Shown piece after piece: positions 14,703 to 52,683 of a stretch of 64,000 bases of DNA (positions are counted from its first letter, which is position 1; every line of letters starts with the position of its first letter). Source of the stretch: Parafrankia elaeagni (GTDB lineage Bacteria > Actinomycetota > Actinomycetes > Frankiales > Frankiaceae). The translations under genes and the position numbers were made by a program. Location: NCBI RefSeq assembly GCF_000374165.1, contig NZ_KB893683.1, positions 74,833-138,832 on the forward strand, in the 5' to 3' direction. Under the pieces are notes generated by a model, which did not search any database, was not told the origin of the DNA, and was given only the letters and a program-made list of their open reading frames with translations.

Positions 14703-17417
14703 GTGCGCCGAAAGCGGGACTGGGAAACCACACCGCCTGCGGACTCGACCGGGCCCTCGTTGACCGCCGCAGCACGGATGACAACGCCACTCGGCCCCGG
14801 TGACCCGGGCCGTCTCGGCCATTACACGCTGATCGGCCGCCTCGGCGAGGGCGGCATGGGCACCGTCTACCTGGGCCGCGGCCTCGACGACCGGCTCGTC
14901 GCCGTCAAGGTGATCCGGGCCGATCTGGCCCGCATGCCCGAGTTCCGGGCACGCTTCCACCGCGAGGCGGACATCGCCCGGCGGGTCGCGCGCTTCTGCA
15001 CGGCCGAGGTCCTCGACGTCGTCGACCCACCCGACGGGCAGCCGTACCTGGTGACCGAGTACGTCGACGGGCTCACCCTGGCGCAGGCGGTGAACGTCGA
15101 GGGCCCGCTGCGCTCGGCAGACCTGGAGCGGGTGGCGGTCAGCGTCGCCGCGGCGCTCACCGCGATCCACGGTGCCGGGCTCGTCCACCGGGATCTCAAA
15201 CCGTCCAACGTGCTGCTCTCCACCCTCGGGCCCCGGGTGATCGATTTCGGTATCGCCCGCGCCCTGGACGCGCAGACCATGCTCAGCCAGGAGATCCAGC
15301 GCATCGGCACGCCGGCGTTCATGGCCCCCGAGCAGGCCAACGGCGAGCCGGTGACCGCCGCGGCCGACATCTTCGCCTGGGGCGGGCTGGTCACCTACGC
15401 CGGCACCGGCTCCTTCCCGTTCGGCGACGGGCCGACTCCGGTGCAGCTCTACCGGGTCGTCCACCGCGAGCCACTGCTGGACGGGCTCAACCCGACGCTG
15501 CGGCCCATCGTCGAGCAGGCGATGCGCAAGGACCCCGCCGACCGCCCGACCGCGCAGGAGCTGTTCCTGCGCCTGGTCGGTACCGGGCCTGCGACCCATC
15601 CTGATCCCGCGGTCTCCGCGGCGATCCGGACGAGTGGCCCGCCAGCTCCCGGCGGTGCGCCGGGTGCCGGCGGAACCGTTTCAGCTGCCGGCGACGGAGC
15701 GGCACCCGACGACGACGCGACGGGCACGATCAGCCGCCCACGCGGCCAGCCAGGCGCCGGCGGCATCCCACCTCATGCCGACAGCCCCCCTCATGCCGAC
15801 AGCCCGCCTGGTCCCGACAGCCCGCCCGGTGCCGACAGCCCGCCTGGTCCCAGCGCCGAGGCGAGCGGCGCGCTCAGCGGCCCGCCAGGTGCCACCGCCG
15901 ATCTACCGGGATCCGTCGGGACGCCGGGTGGACCGGCTGCCGTCGGCACCCCGTCGGCACGCTCGCTCGCCGACGTACCGGCGCAGCCCGCTCCAGAACA
16001 CGACCTCGCCACCGGTCCCCGGCACCCGACATCCGCCGGCACCGGCACCGGCGGCAGCAGCGGCGGCGGCGGCGGTCACGGTGACGTGGACCGCGGCGGA
16101 CCGGCCGTCACCCGGTTCCTCACGCCGACGACGCGCCGCCGGATCGCGCTGTTCGCCGCGCCGGTGCTCGCACTGCTGCTGATCGCCGCGCTCGTCCCGC
16201 TGGCCTTCACCGGCGGTGGGAACGACGAGAAGACACGGGACGAGGTGGCTCGTCGTGTCGTGTCCACGGCCGAGGCGATCCGCGACTCGGACGCCGAACG
16301 CGCCGCACGCCTGAGCCTGGCCGCCTTCCGGATAAGCCCGGTGCCGGAGGCCCGCGCGAGCCTGCGGACGTCCTTCTCCCCCGCCACCGCGAGCGTGCTG
16401 AGCGGCCACAGCTCGTCGGTCCTCGGCCTGGGAGTCAGCCAGGACGGGCGCACCGTCGCCACCGGCGGCGCCGACAACCTGGTGCAGCTGTGGGGCGTCT
16501 CCGACCGCGCGCGCCCCGAGAAGCTCGCCACCATCACCGCGCACACCGGCTGGGTGCTCGACGCGACGTTCAGCCCGGACGGAAAGCTGCTCGCCACCGC
16601 CAGCTACGACCGCACCGTGCGACTGTGGGATATCAGCGACCTGGCCCAGCCGCGGCAGCTCTCGGTCCTGCTCGGGCACAACGGCTACGTCCTCGACGCC
16701 GAGTTCTCCCCCGACGGGGGGATGCTGGCCACCTCGGGCTACGACAACACGGCCCGGCTGTGGGATGTCAGCAATCCGGCCGAGCCGAGCGAGCTCGCCG
16801 TCCTCGACCGGCACACCAGCTGGGTCAACGAGATCGCGTTCAGTCCGGACGGAAAGCTGCTGGCCACCGCCAGCGCCGACCGCACCGCCCGGCTGTGGGA
16901 CATCACCAGCCCGCGCCGGCCGCGTCCGCTGGCCGCCATCACCGCCCACACGGACTACGTCTGGGCACTGGCCTTCAGCCCGGACGGGCGGCAGCTGGCC
17001 ACCGGCGCCTACGACGGGCTGGTGAAACTCTGGGACGTGACCGACCCGGCCAGGCCCCGTGCGACGGCGTCGGTGCTCGCCGACGAGAAATGGGTCTTCG
17101 ACCTCGCCTACAGCCCGGACGGCCGCACCCTGGCCACCGCCGGCTGGGACACCACCACCCACCTGTGGGACCTGACCACCCCCGGCCAGGCGACAGCCGC
17201 CGGGCGGATCTCCGGCCACGGCGACTGGGTCCAGGGCGTCGAGTTCACACCGGACAGCGCGTCACTTGTGACCATCAGCGACGACTACTCGGCCCGGATC
17301 TCCCGCATGGACGACGCCGGCCTCGTCGCCCGCGCCTGCGCCGACCCGGCCAACCAGATCACCCAGGCCGAATGGCAACGCGACATCGTCGACGTCCCCT
17401 ACCAGCCTGTCTGCTGA
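14703..17417 (+). CDS. Transmembrane Ser/Thr protein kinase with C-terminal WD40 repeats
   Basis: The 904-residue protein has a complete N-terminal Hanks kinase domain: glycine loop IGRLGEGGMGTVYLG, VAVKVI (Lys69), catalytic loop VHRDLKPSN (Asp164), DFG (Asp181) and the GTPAFMAPE activation segment. A Pro/Ser/Gly-rich linker with SPPG-type repeats spans about 305-470, one membrane helix lies near 480-500, and residues from about 555 form some seven WD40 repeats (HTGWVLDATFSPDGKLLATA type), which should sit outside the cell as a ligand-binding propeller. GTG 14703 is chosen for the GGGGGAA ribosome site; a TAGGCT box at 14665-14670 fits its promoter. A later ATG at 14778 lacks a ribosome site. 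The target is unknown. Confidence 0.88.
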   Translation: MRRKRDWETTPPADSTGPSLTAAARMTTPLGPGDPGRLGHYTLIGRLGEGGMGTVYLGRGLDDRLVAVKVIRADLARMPEFRARFHREADIARRVARFCTAEVLDVVDPPDGQPYLVTEYVDGLTLAQAVNVEGPLRSADLERVAVSVAAALTAIHGAGLVHRDLKPSNVLLSTLGPRVIDFGIARALDAQTMLSQEIQRIGTPAFMAPEQANGEPVTAAADIFAWGGLVTYAGTGSFPFGDGPTPVQLYRVVHREPLLDGLNPTLRPIVEQAMRKDPADRPTAQELFLRLVGTGPATHPDPAVSAAIRTSGPPAPGGAPGAGGTVSAAGDGAAPDDDATGTISRPRGQPGAGGIPPHADSPPHADSPPGPDSPPGADSPPGPSAEASGALSGPPGATADLPGSVGTPGGPAAVGTPSARSLADVPAQPAPEHDLATGPRHPTSAGTGTGGSSGGGGGHGDVDRGGPAVTRFLTPTTRRRIALFAAPVLALLLIAALVPLAFTGGGNDEKTRDEVARRVVSTAEAIRDSDAERAARLSLAAFRISPVPEARASLRTSFSPATASVLSGHSSSVLGLGVSQDGRTVATGGADNLVQLWGVSDRARPEKLATITAHTGWVLDATFSPDGKLLATASYDRTVRLWDISDLAQPRQLSVLLGHNGYVLDAEFSPDGGMLATSGYDNTARLWDVSNPAEPSELAVLDRHTSWVNEIAFSPDGKLLATASADRTARLWDITSPRRPRPLAAITAHTDYVWALAFSPDGRQLATGAYDGLVKLWDVTDPARPRATASVLADEKWVFDLAYSPDGRTLATAGWDTTTHLWDLTTPGQATAAGRISGHGDWVQGVEFTPDSASLVTISDDYSARISRMDDAGLVARACADPANQITQAEWQRDIVDVPYQPVC

Positions 17418-47723: not shown

Positions 47724-48326
47724 GTGGCACGGCCGACACTCGCATCGCCCAGACCAGGCGGTCGCCCCCGAGACGAGAGCCGCGACCACACGATTCGCCA
47801 GGCGGCCCTCGAACTCCTCGCCGAGCACGGCTACGACGGCGTGACAATGGATCGGGTGGCAACCCGGGCCAAGGCCGGGAAGGCCACCATCTACCGGCGA
47901 TGGCCATCCAAGATCGCCCTGGTGATGGACGCGCTGACCCAGTTCACCGAACAGACCATGCAGGTTCCGGATGCCGGGTCCCTGCGCAACGAAATGGTCA
48001 CCTTCCTGCTGTCGTTCGTGGAGCTGGCCGGGAGCGAACAGGGCCGGATCATGGCCGAGATGGTCTCCGAGATGCCGCGCAATCCGGAGCTGCGGTCCGC
48101 GGTACGCGAACGCATGTGGAGTCAGCGCAGGTCCTCGTCCGAGTCCATCGTCAACCGCGGGATCGCGCGCGGCGAGGTCAGCCCGGAGGCGGATCCCACC
48201 ATCCTGATCGAGCTCGGCACCGCGCTGATCCTGCAGCGCCTGCTCATCACCGGGGACCCGGTCGACCGACCCTTTGTCGAGCACATCGTCGACGACCTGA
48301 TCATGCCCTACGCGGCGCGCAACTGA
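47724..48326 (+). CDS. TetR-family transcriptional regulator
   Basis: The 200-residue protein has an N-terminal helix-turn-helix: [20 protein letters not shown] and [19 protein letters not shown], typical of TetR/AcrR. The C-terminal helical ligand-binding domain (about 75-195) is not specific enough to predict a ligand. GTG 47724 has a clear AGGAGGG ribosome site six bases upstream; longer in-frame starts are unlikely. Possible targets are the flanking genes; an inverted repeat lies 118 bases downstream of its stop. Confidence 0.92.
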
Positions 48327-48738: not shown

Positions 48739-50007
48739 ATGCAGCCACCGAACCCGGGTCCGCACGACCCGGACGCCGAGACTCGGCGGGTCGACAGCGG
48801 TGGTCATGGATTCGGCGACGATGCCGAGACCCAGCTCGTGAACGACGGTGGCGGCTACCAGCCGCCAGCCGGTGGTGGGTACGGCCAGCCCGGCCAGGGC
48901 GCGGGCGCCGGCCAGGGCCAGCCCACGGGCCAGCCGGGCTACCAGCAGACCGCGCCCTACGCGCAGCCCGGCGGCTACCAGCAGACCGGCTACGACCAGG
49001 GCGGCTACCAGCAGACCGGCTACAACCAGCAGGGCGGCTACCAGCAGACCGGCGGCTACCCGCAGGGCGGCGGCTACCCGCAGACCGGCGGCTACCAGCA
49101 GGGCTACCCCACCGAGGGCTACCAGCAGCCCGGCTACGACCAGCAGGGCTACGACCAGGGCGGCTACCCGCAGACCGGCTACAACCAGCAGGGCGGCTAC
49201 CAGCAGACCGGCGGCTACCCGCAGGGCGGTGGCTACCAGCAGGGCGGTGGCTACCAGGGCGAGGGTTACCAGCAGCCCGGGTATGGCGGCGGTTACCCGC
49301 CCCAGGGCTATCCCGGTGGCCCGGGCGGTCCGGGCGGGACGAACCCGAACCGGCGCCGCAACATCATCATCGTGGCGGTGGCCGCGGCGGCCGCGCTGGC
49401 CATCGCCATCCCGGTGGCCCTGGTCGCGACCAGCGGCTCCGACGACGATCCGGACGGGCCGGTGGTCGCCACGACGCTGGCCCCGTCCGCCCCGGCGACC
49501 AGCACCAGCGCCACCGCCAGCGCCACGCCGAGCGCACCCCCGACCAGCGCGACGCCGAGCCCGAGCGCGTCCCCGACTTCCGGCGCCTTCACGCCCACGC
49601 AGTCGGCGCTGCTCGCAAAGCTGGACGCGACGACGATGACCGACTGCGAGGCCAACCCCGAGGGTGAGGACGAGGACATCGACGCGTCGTTGTTCTGCAC
49701 CGCGGACAACGGCCAGCTCGTCGCCGCCTACCACTACCGGGACTCGGCCTCGCTCACCAACGACGTGGACGCCCGGGAAGGGCTCGTCACCGACCAGGGT
49801 GACTGCAAGAACGGTGACCCGGACGTCTTCACCTGGAACTTCGACGAGGGCCAGACCGAGGGAACGGCCCTTTGCTACTACTACCAGAACGACTTCTTCA
49901 TCTTCTGGACGTACGACGACGAGCTGGTCTCCTTCATGGCGCTGGATGACGACGCCGGCGCGCTCTACGAATGGTGGACCCGGTTCGACCCGGTGCCGCG
50001 GAGCTGA
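48739..50007 (+). CDS. Gln/Gly/Tyr-repeat membrane protein with four-cysteine outer domain (copy 1 of 3)
   Basis: The 422-residue protein starts at ATG 48739 behind an AGGAGGG site. Residues about 40-205 are low-complexity repeats such as [18 protein letters not shown]; one helix (about 213-236, [20 protein letters not shown]) places the rest outside. A Thr/Ser/Pro linker is followed by a domain of about 120 residues with four cysteines ([28 protein letters not shown]) ending in [12 protein letters not shown]. The same domain ends the next two proteins. The cytoplasmic repeats may drive clustering; the outer domain resembles the tails of some actinobacterial Ser/Thr kinases (impression only). 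Confidence 0.82.
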
Positions 50008-50175
50008 CCGCGGGCTCGACTTCGGACGTGACACCCGGGGGGCGGCCGGGCAGTTGTCCGGCACGCCCGCCGGACGCCCTCCGCACACCCGCGCCCACGC
50101 CGCGAACCGCCCGCCGCCGCATCAACAGGTGACGTTGCGGGGTGGTACCGGCAGATCCGGCGTGACATGTGCGCC

Positions 50176-50181
50176 TACCCT
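50176..50181 (+). promoter_or_regulatory. Candidate -10 box of the gene at 50264
   Basis: TACCCT fits TANNNT and would give a leader of about 75 bases ending in the AGGAGGA ribosome site. It lies in the 256-base gap after the first four-cysteine protein gene. Confidence 0.35.
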
Positions 50182-50263
50182 GTGACGCACGCCATCGTCA
50201 CCCAGGCGTCTCCATTCATCCCGGTTTCCGTAAGTCCGGCCGGATCCCCTCCCAGGAGGAATC

Positions 50264-52018
50264 GTGCCCAGCCAGAGTCCCGGCGACGGCGCGTCGCCCG
50301 TCCCCGAGCCGCCTGGCCCTTTCCCGCCGGTCAGCCACACCCCTGACCCGGAGGACGCCGAGGGCTCGGCGGACAGCACGCAGGTTCTGCGGCCGAACGC
50401 CTTCCCGCCGGCGGCCACAGCGGGCGGCTTCCCCGGTCTCCACGCCGCCCCACCACCAGAACCGGCCCACCCCCACCTGCCGCCGGTGCCCCCGGGCCCG
50501 CCCGGCCCCGCCGGGCGCCCAGGCCTCTACCTCCCGGCGCCGCATCCGCACATCCCGGCGCCGCATCCGCCCGCCGCCAACCAGGGCTGGCCGCCGCCGG
50601 CTCCGGGCCAGGGCTTTCCCCCCGGTCCGCCCGGTCACTTCGGTCCGCCCGGTCCGCCCGGTCACTTCGGACCGCCGCCTGACGGTTTCGGGCCAAGCGG
50701 TCCCCCGCCCGGAGGTTTCGGCCCTCCCGGTGTACCCGGCCCGTCCGGGCCGCCGCACCTGCCGCACCCGGCGGGAGCGGCAGGCGGTCCGGCCTGGCCC
50801 GGCGTGTCCCCACCACCCGGGCAGCCGTCCTTCGGCGGCCCGGAGTCGCCCGCCGAGGAGCTGACCTACCGCCTGGCACCCCCGGGGCCGGCGTCCGCCG
50901 CCCGCGGGCCCGCCGGCCCGCCCCCGCCCGGCTCACTGCCCGGTGTCGGCGAACACGGAATCGGCACCCCGGAAACCGGCCCGCGCGCGGCCGGCGGGCA
51001 CGACGGCGGCAGCGGTCCCGGCGGGCAGCGTGCCGGCGAGGCACCCGAGCTGCTGCCGCTGACCGGACCGCATCCGCTGCCCCCTCCTCCGCAGGAGTCG
51101 TTCACCGTGCGGCGGACACCCCTCCCGCCTCCCGGCCGCATCGCGGACGGACCGTCCTGGCCCTCTCCGCCGCCGAGCTACCTGGACTCACCCTCCGGCG
51201 GTGGCCTTCTCCCCGCCATCCCACCGCGGATCACCTCGCCAGGCGGCCCGCTGGGCGGAGAGCCTCCTGCCCGCGCCGGGCAGGCTGGTCCCGGCCACGC
51301 CCCTGGCGCCCCTGGCGCCTCGGGCGCCTCGGGCGCCTCGGGGCCACCCGGCAGGCCCGGTGGGTTCGGAGGCCCCGGCGCACCGGACGGATCCGGGTCG
51401 TCGCCGCGCAGGCCGCAGGCGCTGACCGTGGTCGCCGCCGCGGCAGCGGTCGTCGTCGTGGTCGCGGTGGTCGGCATCATTCTGGGTACCCGGACCGACA
51501 GCGGTGGGGACACGACATCCGCCGCGCCCGCCCCCACCGGTGCGGCGGCCGGCCCCGCGGACCCGGCCGGCGCCGCGCCCGCCCCGGGTGCCCCGGCACC
51601 GCGGCTCAGCCCCGAGGACACCCTGCGCGGGCTGCTCAACCCGGCCACGATGACTGGTTGCTCCACACCAGCACAGAGCGACAGCCTCTACGCGGACGCC
51701 ACCCTGAGCTGCATCGGCGCCGGCGGCGTCGAGGTGCTGGCATTCCACTTCCCCGACCGTTCCGCCCTGGAGCGCCAGATCGGCGCCCGCGCGACCTACT
51801 ACGCCGACACCGGCAACTGTGACGACGGCCGGGAGAGCGCCGAGGAGTGGACGTCCCCGCAGGAGCCGAACGGCGGGGCACGTCTGTGTTACAAGTACGC
51901 CGACCGGTTCGTGACCCTCTGGAGCATCAGCGACTCTCTGGTCGCCTTCACCGCCTCTGACCAGAACCCGGCCCGTCTGATCGCCTGGTGGCACGGGTTC
52001 GACCCGATCCGCCGGTGA
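50264..52018 (+). CDS. Pro/Gly-rich membrane protein with four-cysteine outer domain (copy 2 of 3)
   Basis: The 584-residue protein begins at GTG 50264, four bases after AGGAGGA. Residues 1-380 are Pro/Gly-rich with collagen-like repeats (PPGHFGPPGPPGHFGPP, GAPGASGASGASGPPG), one helix spans about 386-408 (ALTVVAAAAAVVVVVAVVGI), and a Ser/Pro/Ala linker leads to an outer domain with cysteines in MTGCSTP, LSCIGAG, GNCDDG and RLCYKY and the ending WWHGFDPIRR. The stop codon overlaps the next start (GTGA). It shares only the C-terminal domain with its neighbours; the low-complexity N-terminus differs. Function unknown. Confidence 0.8.
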   Translation: MPSQSPGDGASPVPEPPGPFPPVSHTPDPEDAEGSADSTQVLRPNAFPPAATAGGFPGLHAAPPPEPAHPHLPPVPPGPPGPAGRPGLYLPAPHPHIPAPHPPAANQGWPPPAPGQGFPPGPPGHFGPPGPPGHFGPPPDGFGPSGPPPGGFGPPGVPGPSGPPHLPHPAGAAGGPAWPGVSPPPGQPSFGGPESPAEELTYRLAPPGPASAARGPAGPPPPGSLPGVGEHGIGTPETGPRAAGGHDGGSGPGGQRAGEAPELLPLTGPHPLPPPPQESFTVRRTPLPPPGRIADGPSWPSPPPSYLDSPSGGGLLPAIPPRITSPGGPLGGEPPARAGQAGPGHAPGAPGASGASGASGPPGRPGGFGGPGAPDGSGSSPRRPQALTVVAAAAAVVVVVAVVGIILGTRTDSGGDTTSAAPAPTGAAAGPADPAGAAPAPGAPAPRLSPEDTLRGLLNPATMTGCSTPAQSDSLYADATLSCIGAGGVEVLAFHFPDRSALERQIGARATYYADTGNCDDGRESAEEWTSPQEPNGGARLCYKYADRFVTLWSISDSLVAFTASDQNPARLIAWWHGFDPIRR

Positions 52019-52683
52019 GACTGCGCCCGCCGCGCCTGCTGGTCACCGCCACGCTGGCCACGGCCGCGCTGATCGTCGCGGTGCTGCTGATCGTCCTCGC
52101 GGCGGCCCGGGGCTCGTCCCCGGAGCGGCCGGCGGCGATCGGGTCCCCGCCGGCCGCGGGCACCACTCCCGCGGTGCCCGGCCCGGCGGTCACCGCGTCG
52201 TCCGCCGCGCCCGCGGCACTGGACGACGCCGAGCAGGAGCTGCGGGACCGGCTGTCGTCCTTCGAGCTGACCGACTGCCGGTCCGCCACGGGAGAGGCGG
52301 GGGGGACGGGCGTGGCCGGCGGCGCGACCGACGTCCGCGCACGCGGTGTCACAGCCGCGCTGCGCTGTGCTCCCGGTGTCGCCGGGGCGGGCCGGCCACC
52401 GGCCGAGGTGGTCGTCCTCGGCTACGCCGACAGTGCGGCGATGGCCGCCGACGCGGCACGGCGGTCGTCCGCCGTGGTCGACGTCGGTTCCTGCGAGAAC
52501 GGCCAGACCAGCAGTGAGGCGTATCTCCTGCCGTCCCGCCGTACCGGGACGTTCGTCTGCGACGCGCGCCCCGGCGATTTCACCGCCTACTGGACCATTG
52601 ACCGCGAGCAGGCGGGGTTCATCGCCGGCTCCGACGATCCGACCGGCCTGCTCACCTGGTGGCGCGCCTTCGACCCGCTCTGA
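52015..52683 (+). CDS. Short membrane protein with four-cysteine outer domain (copy 3 of 3)
   Basis: The 222-residue protein starts at a GTG that overlaps the previous stop (GTGA), so the two are translated together. It has no cytoplasmic repeat region: one helix (about 7-30, LVTATLATAALIVAVLLIVL), a Pro/Ala linker, then the shared domain with cysteines in ELTDCRS, ALRCAPG, GSCENG and FVCDAR and the ending WWRAFDPL. It is the minimal version of the three-gene family. Function unknown. Confidence 0.78.
   Translation: MRLRPPRLLVTATLATAALIVAVLLIVLAAARGSSPERPAAIGSPPAAGTTPAVPGPAVTASSAAPAALDDAEQELRDRLSSFELTDCRSATGEAGGTGVAGGATDVRARGVTAALRCAPGVAGAGRPPAEVVVLGYADSAAMAADAARRSSAVVDVGSCENGQTSSEAYLLPSRRTGTFVCDARPGDFTAYWTIDREQAGFIAGSDDPTGLLTWWRAFDPL

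Follow-up and report, generated by a model that had tools for sequence, protein, structure and literature searches.

Three tandem genes of the actinomycete Parafrankia elaeagni encode proteins that are predicted to cross the membrane once, with N-terminal tails inside and a four-cysteine domain outside, and this outer domain belongs, as judged from sequence, to one family with the outer domains found on actinobacterial receptor-type Ser/Thr kinases and on Hsp70-like fusion proteins. The genes lie in a stretch of 64,000 nucleotides (assembly GCF_000374165.1, contig NZ_KB893683.1, positions 74,833 to 138,832 of the forward strand), referred to here as the window. The domain is a real and conserved sensor-type family that has no model in the libraries searched, Pfam and NCBIfam. 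In our favoured reading, in which we place about as much belief as doubt, the trio are kinase-free members of the receptor family that combine a PknH-like sensor with a phosphorylatable tail and act as companions in a receptor-kinase network. Genera, genomes and loci are given below by labels of our own (g, G and L numbers).

Architecture of the three genes

Gene 1 (48739..50007; 422 residues, ATG start), gene 2 (50264..52018; 584 residues, GTG start) and gene 3 (52015..52683; 222 residues, GTG start) follow one another on the plus strand, as do all features of the trio described below. In the first two, a long inner part is followed by arginines, one hydrophobic helix, a linker and the C-terminal domain; in gene 3 the inner part is almost nil, the helix lies near the N terminus and the order of helix, linker and domain is the same. 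The membrane helices, all with approximate ends, were placed from the translations at 49363..49428 (gene 1, after RRRN, with a hydropathy scan), 51419..51487 (gene 2) and 52036..52104 (gene 3), and the linkers behind them are rich in Ser/Thr/Pro, as in gene 1, or in Ala/Pro. The outer domains occupy 49588..50004 (Cys 303, 320, 356 and 379), 51599..52015 (Cys 466, 483, 519 and 542) and 52213..52680 (Cys 88, 118, 160 and 182), which amounts to about 140 residues in genes 1 and 2 and 156 in gene 3. Each protein has exactly four cysteines, every one of them within this domain.

The initial annotation, which was made from the window alone, had described three consecutive single-pass genes with unrelated inner regions and one outer domain, and pairwise and whole-genome comparisons agree with it. 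The GTGA overlap by which it took genes 2 and 3 to be coupled is found at 52015-52018. Its account of the inner regions stands for the Gln/Gly/Tyr-rich tail of gene 1 (about 207 residues; 64 G, 41 Q and 26 Y per 207), the Pro/Gly-rich tail of gene 2 (about 385 residues; 117 P and 79 G per 385) and the missing tail of gene 3. Its term collagen-like for gene 2 does not stand, the longest Gly-x-y run being nine triplets and no Pfam family appearing at an expectation value (E) ≤ 1, and a collagen reading of this tail was rejected.

Such tails might themselves be the functional part, phase-separating into condensates or scaffolds that the outer domain positions. Their compositions are extreme and the Gln/Gly/Tyr character persists across the gene-1 proteins printed. 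Low-complexity tails are, however, common in actinobacterial membrane proteins, gene 3 has none, and the Hsp70 and kinase versions described below keep the membrane helix and the domain despite other inner parts. A further point for the idea is that tyrosine phosphorylation within GGYPEQ-like repeats of a Bacillus Calmette-Guérin FHA-domain-containing protein, as reported (PMC4389566), indicates that such tails can be signalling targets. On balance a condensate or scaffold is quite improbable as the main explanation.

A conserved outer domain without a library model

In single comparisons the domains of genes 1 and 2 share 32% identity over 134 residues (E 1e-24) and, with helix and linker included, gene 3 matches gene 1 at E 4e-12 and gene 2 at E 6e-11. 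A whole-genome search with the gene 1 domain recovered gene 2 (E 7.4e-22) and gene 3 (E 3.8e-13). The three-way alignment has 27 invariant columns and contains the pattern expected from the initial annotation, namely four cysteines, G-x-C-x-x-G and the ending WW-x-x-FDP in all three domains.

Of the conserved cysteine pairing in homologues on which the earlier description had made the domain depend, the conservation is borne out: in an alignment of 32 homologues three of the four are invariant and the first is kept in at least 90%, and none of the full-length domains inspected by eye was seen to have lost one cysteine pair. The domain is probably held by two disulfides. The same cysteines could alternatively sense the extracytoplasmic redox state, or the trio could be a decoy that titrates a ligand away from receptor kinases. 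Their near-invariance would suit a redox role, as would their being the sole cysteines of the three proteins, but near-invariance fits structural disulfides equally well and no same-domain kinase from which to titrate was found in the genome of the window; we consider both variants very unlikely.

A hidden Markov model search of Pfam, which the initial annotation had proposed, gave no match to any of the three proteins at E ≤ 1, the kinase domain PF00069 included, and the matches in NCBIfam all fell well short of the cut-off, with E values of 0.54 at best. No paper title met in the literature searched, which covers few subscription journals, describes the domain.

AlphaFold2 models of the gene 1 and gene 3 domains (mean predicted local distance difference test, pLDDT, 91 and 87) have an identical order of strands and helices, in line with the common structure that had been anticipated; they were compared through this order and through their lists of weak fold matches, which largely overlap. 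The best VIA-align matches of the two models include DcrB, TiME, TM1622, PknH, LpqN and PsbP-type proteins, all with Z ≤ 8, a level that the tool describes as possibly only a common arrangement. Likeness to LpqN (6E5D), TiME (7CU8), DcrB (6E8A) and PsbP, a group that we take to be Mog1/PsbP-like, is not decisive at such scores, and sequence searches of the PDB gave no useful match, with a single domain returning three matches only (E 0.09 to 0.49) and the 32-row profile nothing at E ≤ 10. From the models, the outer domain possibly has a PknH/LpqN-like (Mog1/PsbP-like) fold.

The PknH sensor domain (PknH_C, PF14032; PDB 4ESQ) parallels the trio domain in that it also occurs off kinases. Two reports give it two disulfides and a cleft and describe it also from lipoproteins and from Rv3705c, a culture-filtrate protein (PMC3601408, PMC4118811). 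Membership of the trio domain in PknH_C was considered and is not supported by Pfam or hhalign, whereas the fold comparison is compatible with it. The Pfam model (cut-off 27 bits) found no match in the trio at E ≤ 1 nor in ten relatives at E ≤ 0.1, and hhalign, comparing the profile of the four-cysteine domain with 15 PknH_C members, gave a probability of 0.9% and E 0.064, with strand, helix, Cys and Trp in the same order. Identity in structural alignments was 8 and 12%, the cysteines are differently spaced and the lengths differ (about 140 against 187 profile positions). By analogy, the trio domain may work like the PknH sensor. PknH_C sensor domains were also seen near domain-bearing kinases in genus g10, with L146 about 2 kb from L139 in genome G098 (G098:C11) and L145 about 4.5 kb from L137 in genome G113 (G113:C1, ~935-942 kb), and the window's genome has one weak PknH_C match (L150, G000:C54:59782-60315, E 7.4e-7).

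The domain on kinases, Hsp70 fusions and stand-alone proteins

Thirteen proteins with a PF00069 kinase domain, their architectures read and checked with Pfam, carry the four-cysteine domain outside: L066, L068, L069 and L070 in g7, a genus of the same family; L083, L084, L087, L088, L136, L137 and L139 in g10; and L129 and L130 in genomes labelled as the same phylum only. The trio differs from these receptor-type kinases in having no kinase domain. Nine of the thirteen match strongly. The four from g7 do so with a three-row profile (E 2.5e-35 to 8.6e-12), and L129, L130, L136, L137 and L139 with the 32-row profile (E 1.4e-22 to 2.9e-15), of which they are not rows although it holds related g10 kinases. 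The remaining four (L083, L084, L087 and L088) were weak initially (E 3.7e-6 to 3.2e-4), yet the cysteine and tryptophan pattern is kept. The domains of gene 1 and of the kinase L066 share 38% identity over 140 residues, and L066 also has the same membrane helix as the gene-1 protein L063, to which it is 53% identical over a stretch of 222 residues that starts ahead of the membrane helix and runs through linker and domain to the end. Another g7 kinase, L069 (5715-8660, minus strand), has three tandem outer copies of the domain, the first of them very weak.

The likeness to the tails of actinobacterial Ser/Thr kinases, which the initial annotation had proposed, is supported by these thirteen proteins and by the nesting of L066, L068 and L070 in the gene-1 clade of the tree described below; its related suggestion, one outer domain on differing inner parts, is seen in the trio itself.

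Four further proteins (L059, L091, L092 and L093), from the sister genus g6, fuse the same outer domain to an Hsp70-like inner part (PF00012) that the window genes lack. Stand-alone forms, among them L081, L082, L131, L132, L140, L141 and L142, matched no Pfam family at the thresholds used and appear, by reading of their sequences, to be secreted, lipoprotein-like or membrane-anchored. Tandem small secreted-looking proteins of g10 consist of little but the domain (L081, 4177-5358; L086, 4172-5853). Two membrane proteins of family f17 have another region between helix and domain (L078, 5204-6439; L079, 4275-5543), and L078 had no Pfam match.

Distribution and history of the locus

In each of the seven genomes of the genus that were searched, the domain occurs three times, neither more nor less, at neighbouring places on a single contig, a count in which two gene 3 matches extend over the final stop; co-occurrence of the trio across genomes, raised in the initial annotation, is thus found at this level. 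Two named relatives were found: in the gene 1 domain, Parafrankia colletiae shows 98% identity and Parafrankia sp. EUN1f 63%. Within the family the domain is present in 33 of 36 genomes, with at least three copies in 7/7 g1, 13/13 g2 and 7/8 g7 genomes, one or two in five g6 genomes and none in three genomes, several of the draft genomes having their copies on different contigs. In a sample of the class, 37 of 296 genomes matched the three-row profile, 26 within the family and 11 outside it (E 9e-14 to 3e-4 for the latter). The domain reaches beyond its own class, and in a phylum sample at least 17 of 396 genomes matched the 32-row profile at E ≤ 1e-4, a lower bound with ten candidates scored per genome.

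The neighbourhood is conserved, with GtrA (PF04138), sometimes TetR, the domain gene or genes, bPH_2, biotin ligase and carboxyl transferase (PF01039), and a carbonic anhydrase-like gene mostly beyond GtrA at the trio place. This order is seen at 17 trio loci, of which the window is one, and at all four g6 Hsp70-fusion loci examined, although some stretches stop short of the outermost genes, so that these were not detected in all of them. At those four loci, drawn from five g6 genomes, the Hsp70 fusions occupy the chromosomal place of the trio. The TetR-type regulator that had been noted upstream is present in the window (47724..48326, plus strand) and is not tied to the trio; a role with it is weakened by the presence of TetR in only 10 of the 17 trio loci (E ≤ 1e-5) and by genome G021 of the same family, in which TetR adjoins bPH_2 with no domain gene detected between. 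Because G021, and likewise G113 of another family, in which GtrA adjoins bPH_2 without any domain gene, lack a domain gene at this point, the domain genes are read from gene order as an insertion at an older locus. In two g7 genomes (L063 and L089) about 4 kb of extra DNA lies between the last trio gene and bPH_2.

The neighbourhood also bears on the possibility that the trio handles envelope lipids or glycolipids, with the outer domain as an LpqN- or TiME-like carrier or chaperone, the tail as a spacer or anchor, and the kinase fusions sensing the same lipid. The fold lists of both models, with DcrB, TiME, TM1622, PknH, LpqN and PsbP-type proteins among the best, point this way, as does a GtrA-family gene, which lies nearby both in the window and in the 21 loci with the trio or an Hsp70 fusion that were examined. 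The fold scores may, however, reflect only a common arrangement, GtrA belongs to the older locus as G113 illustrates, and the conserved threonine sites of gene 1 are left unexplained. We regard lipid handling as unlikely, although with some weight.

A tree was built of 72 domains, a hand-chosen list at E < 1e-5 on which L069, L083, L084, L087, L088 and L130 do not stand, and the tree tool gave a warning about long branches among the more distant rows. The copies of gene 3 from three genera group in a single clade (support 95/83), and those of gene 2 from g1 and g2 in another (100/99), which also takes in two other copies from g7. As for the g7 trio, its second gene does not count as a gene 2 and groups with gene 1 of g1 and g2 (97/97). 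The g7 kinases L066, L068 and L070, which are mutually orthologous, nest among the first-gene copies of the g7 trio, with successive forks at 95/96, 97/74 and 96/91. This nesting, together with the 53% identity of L063 and L066, leads us to conclude that helix and outer domain have, on the sequence evidence, moved together as a unit, within a single genus, between a tail without a kinase and a kinase.

Threonine motifs of the inner tails

The inner tail of gene 1 has two threonine motifs, DPDAETRRV (Thr15; 48766..48792) and DDAETQLVN (Thr31; 48814..48840). The general form T[QR]x[VLIA] was present in 21 of 21 gene-1 proteins, one per genome and picked by start and not by motif (7/7 g1 and 8/8 g7 genomes, and the 6/13 g2 genomes with whole inner parts at hand), and 20 of these have it at residue 15, for the most part within DPDAET or NSDAET. 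A strict form, T[QR][VLIMF][VLIA], occurs in 18 of 19 distinct gene-1 inner parts, where shuffling expects at most 0.02 per protein, and in none of the outer linkers of the rows printed. This shuffling test skipped identical domains and rows without a clear membrane helix (mean hydropathy < 1.5), and it labelled rows as gene 1, gene 2 or other from simple start patterns. An acidic residue, Asp or Glu, occupies position -3 in 28 of the 32 strict sites. The exact pattern DAET[QR][LIMV]V occurs once in the window's genome, in gene 1. In one gene-1 protein, L096 (5566-7482), the inner tail contains T[QR]-hydrophobic sites at four positions.

The motif resembles, in sequence, those published for mycobacterial kinases. 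For PknA-dependent sites an enrichment of acidic residues at positions -1 and -3 to -6 and of Leu/Val at +3 has been published (PMC7164672), and a second paper credits Prisic et al. with the finding of acidic residues at -2 to -5 of mycobacterial kinase sites (PMC6030727). Gene 2 has a related site, ADSTQVLRP (50369..50395), and a second one, LTYRLAPP (50861..50884).

Proposed kinase-free companions of receptor kinases

We infer ligand binding, phosphorylation, FHA docking and partnership for the trio proteins as follows. Outside the membrane, the domain would bind an envelope ligand or a partner protein. Gene 1, and less clearly gene 2, would present a disordered inner tail with acidic-Thr-[Gln/Arg]-hydrophobic sites, which Ser/Thr kinases could phosphorylate and which would then dock FHA-domain proteins. 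The ligand state or a clustering of receptors may set where the phospho-docking tail gathers, and the tailless gene 3 may be a ligand-binding or dimer partner that modulates genes 1 and 2. In the window's genome, 60 matches to Pkinase (E ≤ 1e-10) and 15 to FHA (E ≤ 1e-4) were counted. One of the 60 lies in the window itself (14703-17417), a PF00069 Ser/Thr kinase followed by a likely membrane helix and a C-terminal run of WD40 repeats.

Several observations weigh against kinase-free companionship. No domain-bearing kinase was found in the window's genome, where the 32-row profile, with 150 of 175 candidates scored, gave no match at E ≤ 1 beyond the trio, and gene 3 has no tail to phosphorylate. 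The gene-1 protein of genome G009 has a degenerate site only. Among the 22 proteins counted as gene 2, with G011 not classed and the G004 copy cut by the locus end, STQVLRP-like sites occur in 6 of 7 from g1 and in none of the 15 others listed (g2 and g7); T[YV]RL occurs in 14 of 15 from g1 and g2, Ala replacing Thr in G018, and in none of seven from g7. The strict motif was found in 4 of 11 rows labelled gene 2, a label that includes wrong rows such as a kinase, and in three of the four Hsp70 fusions as a TR-hydrophobic site (shuffling expects 0.002, 0.11 and 0.23), so that for two fusions 0.1 to 0.2 is already expected by shuffling.

A bolder and rather unlikely extension of the companion reading is a bacterial co-receptor system in which one cassette of helix and outer domain is shared by a kinase, by an Hsp70-like ATPase and by phospho-docking tails that have no kinase. 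These would assemble side by side through the shared helix and domain, and the ligand would unite kinase, chaperone and scaffold, in a manner that can be likened to eukaryotic receptor kinases pairing with kinase-dead co-receptors.

According to a 2012 review, structures were available at that time for few of the sensor domains on bacterial receptor Ser/Thr kinases, and the ligands of several were unknown (PMC3601408). The family described here adds a domain of the sensor type, unmatched in Pfam and NCBIfam, that spans kinases, Hsp70-like proteins, disordered tails and stand-alone forms, and that forms a conserved trio in the family holding Parafrankia. Members of Parafrankia are relatives of nitrogen-fixing Frankia. 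The small kinase-free version would be an easy handle for finding the ligand, and the tail of gene 1 gives a direct test of phosphorylation.

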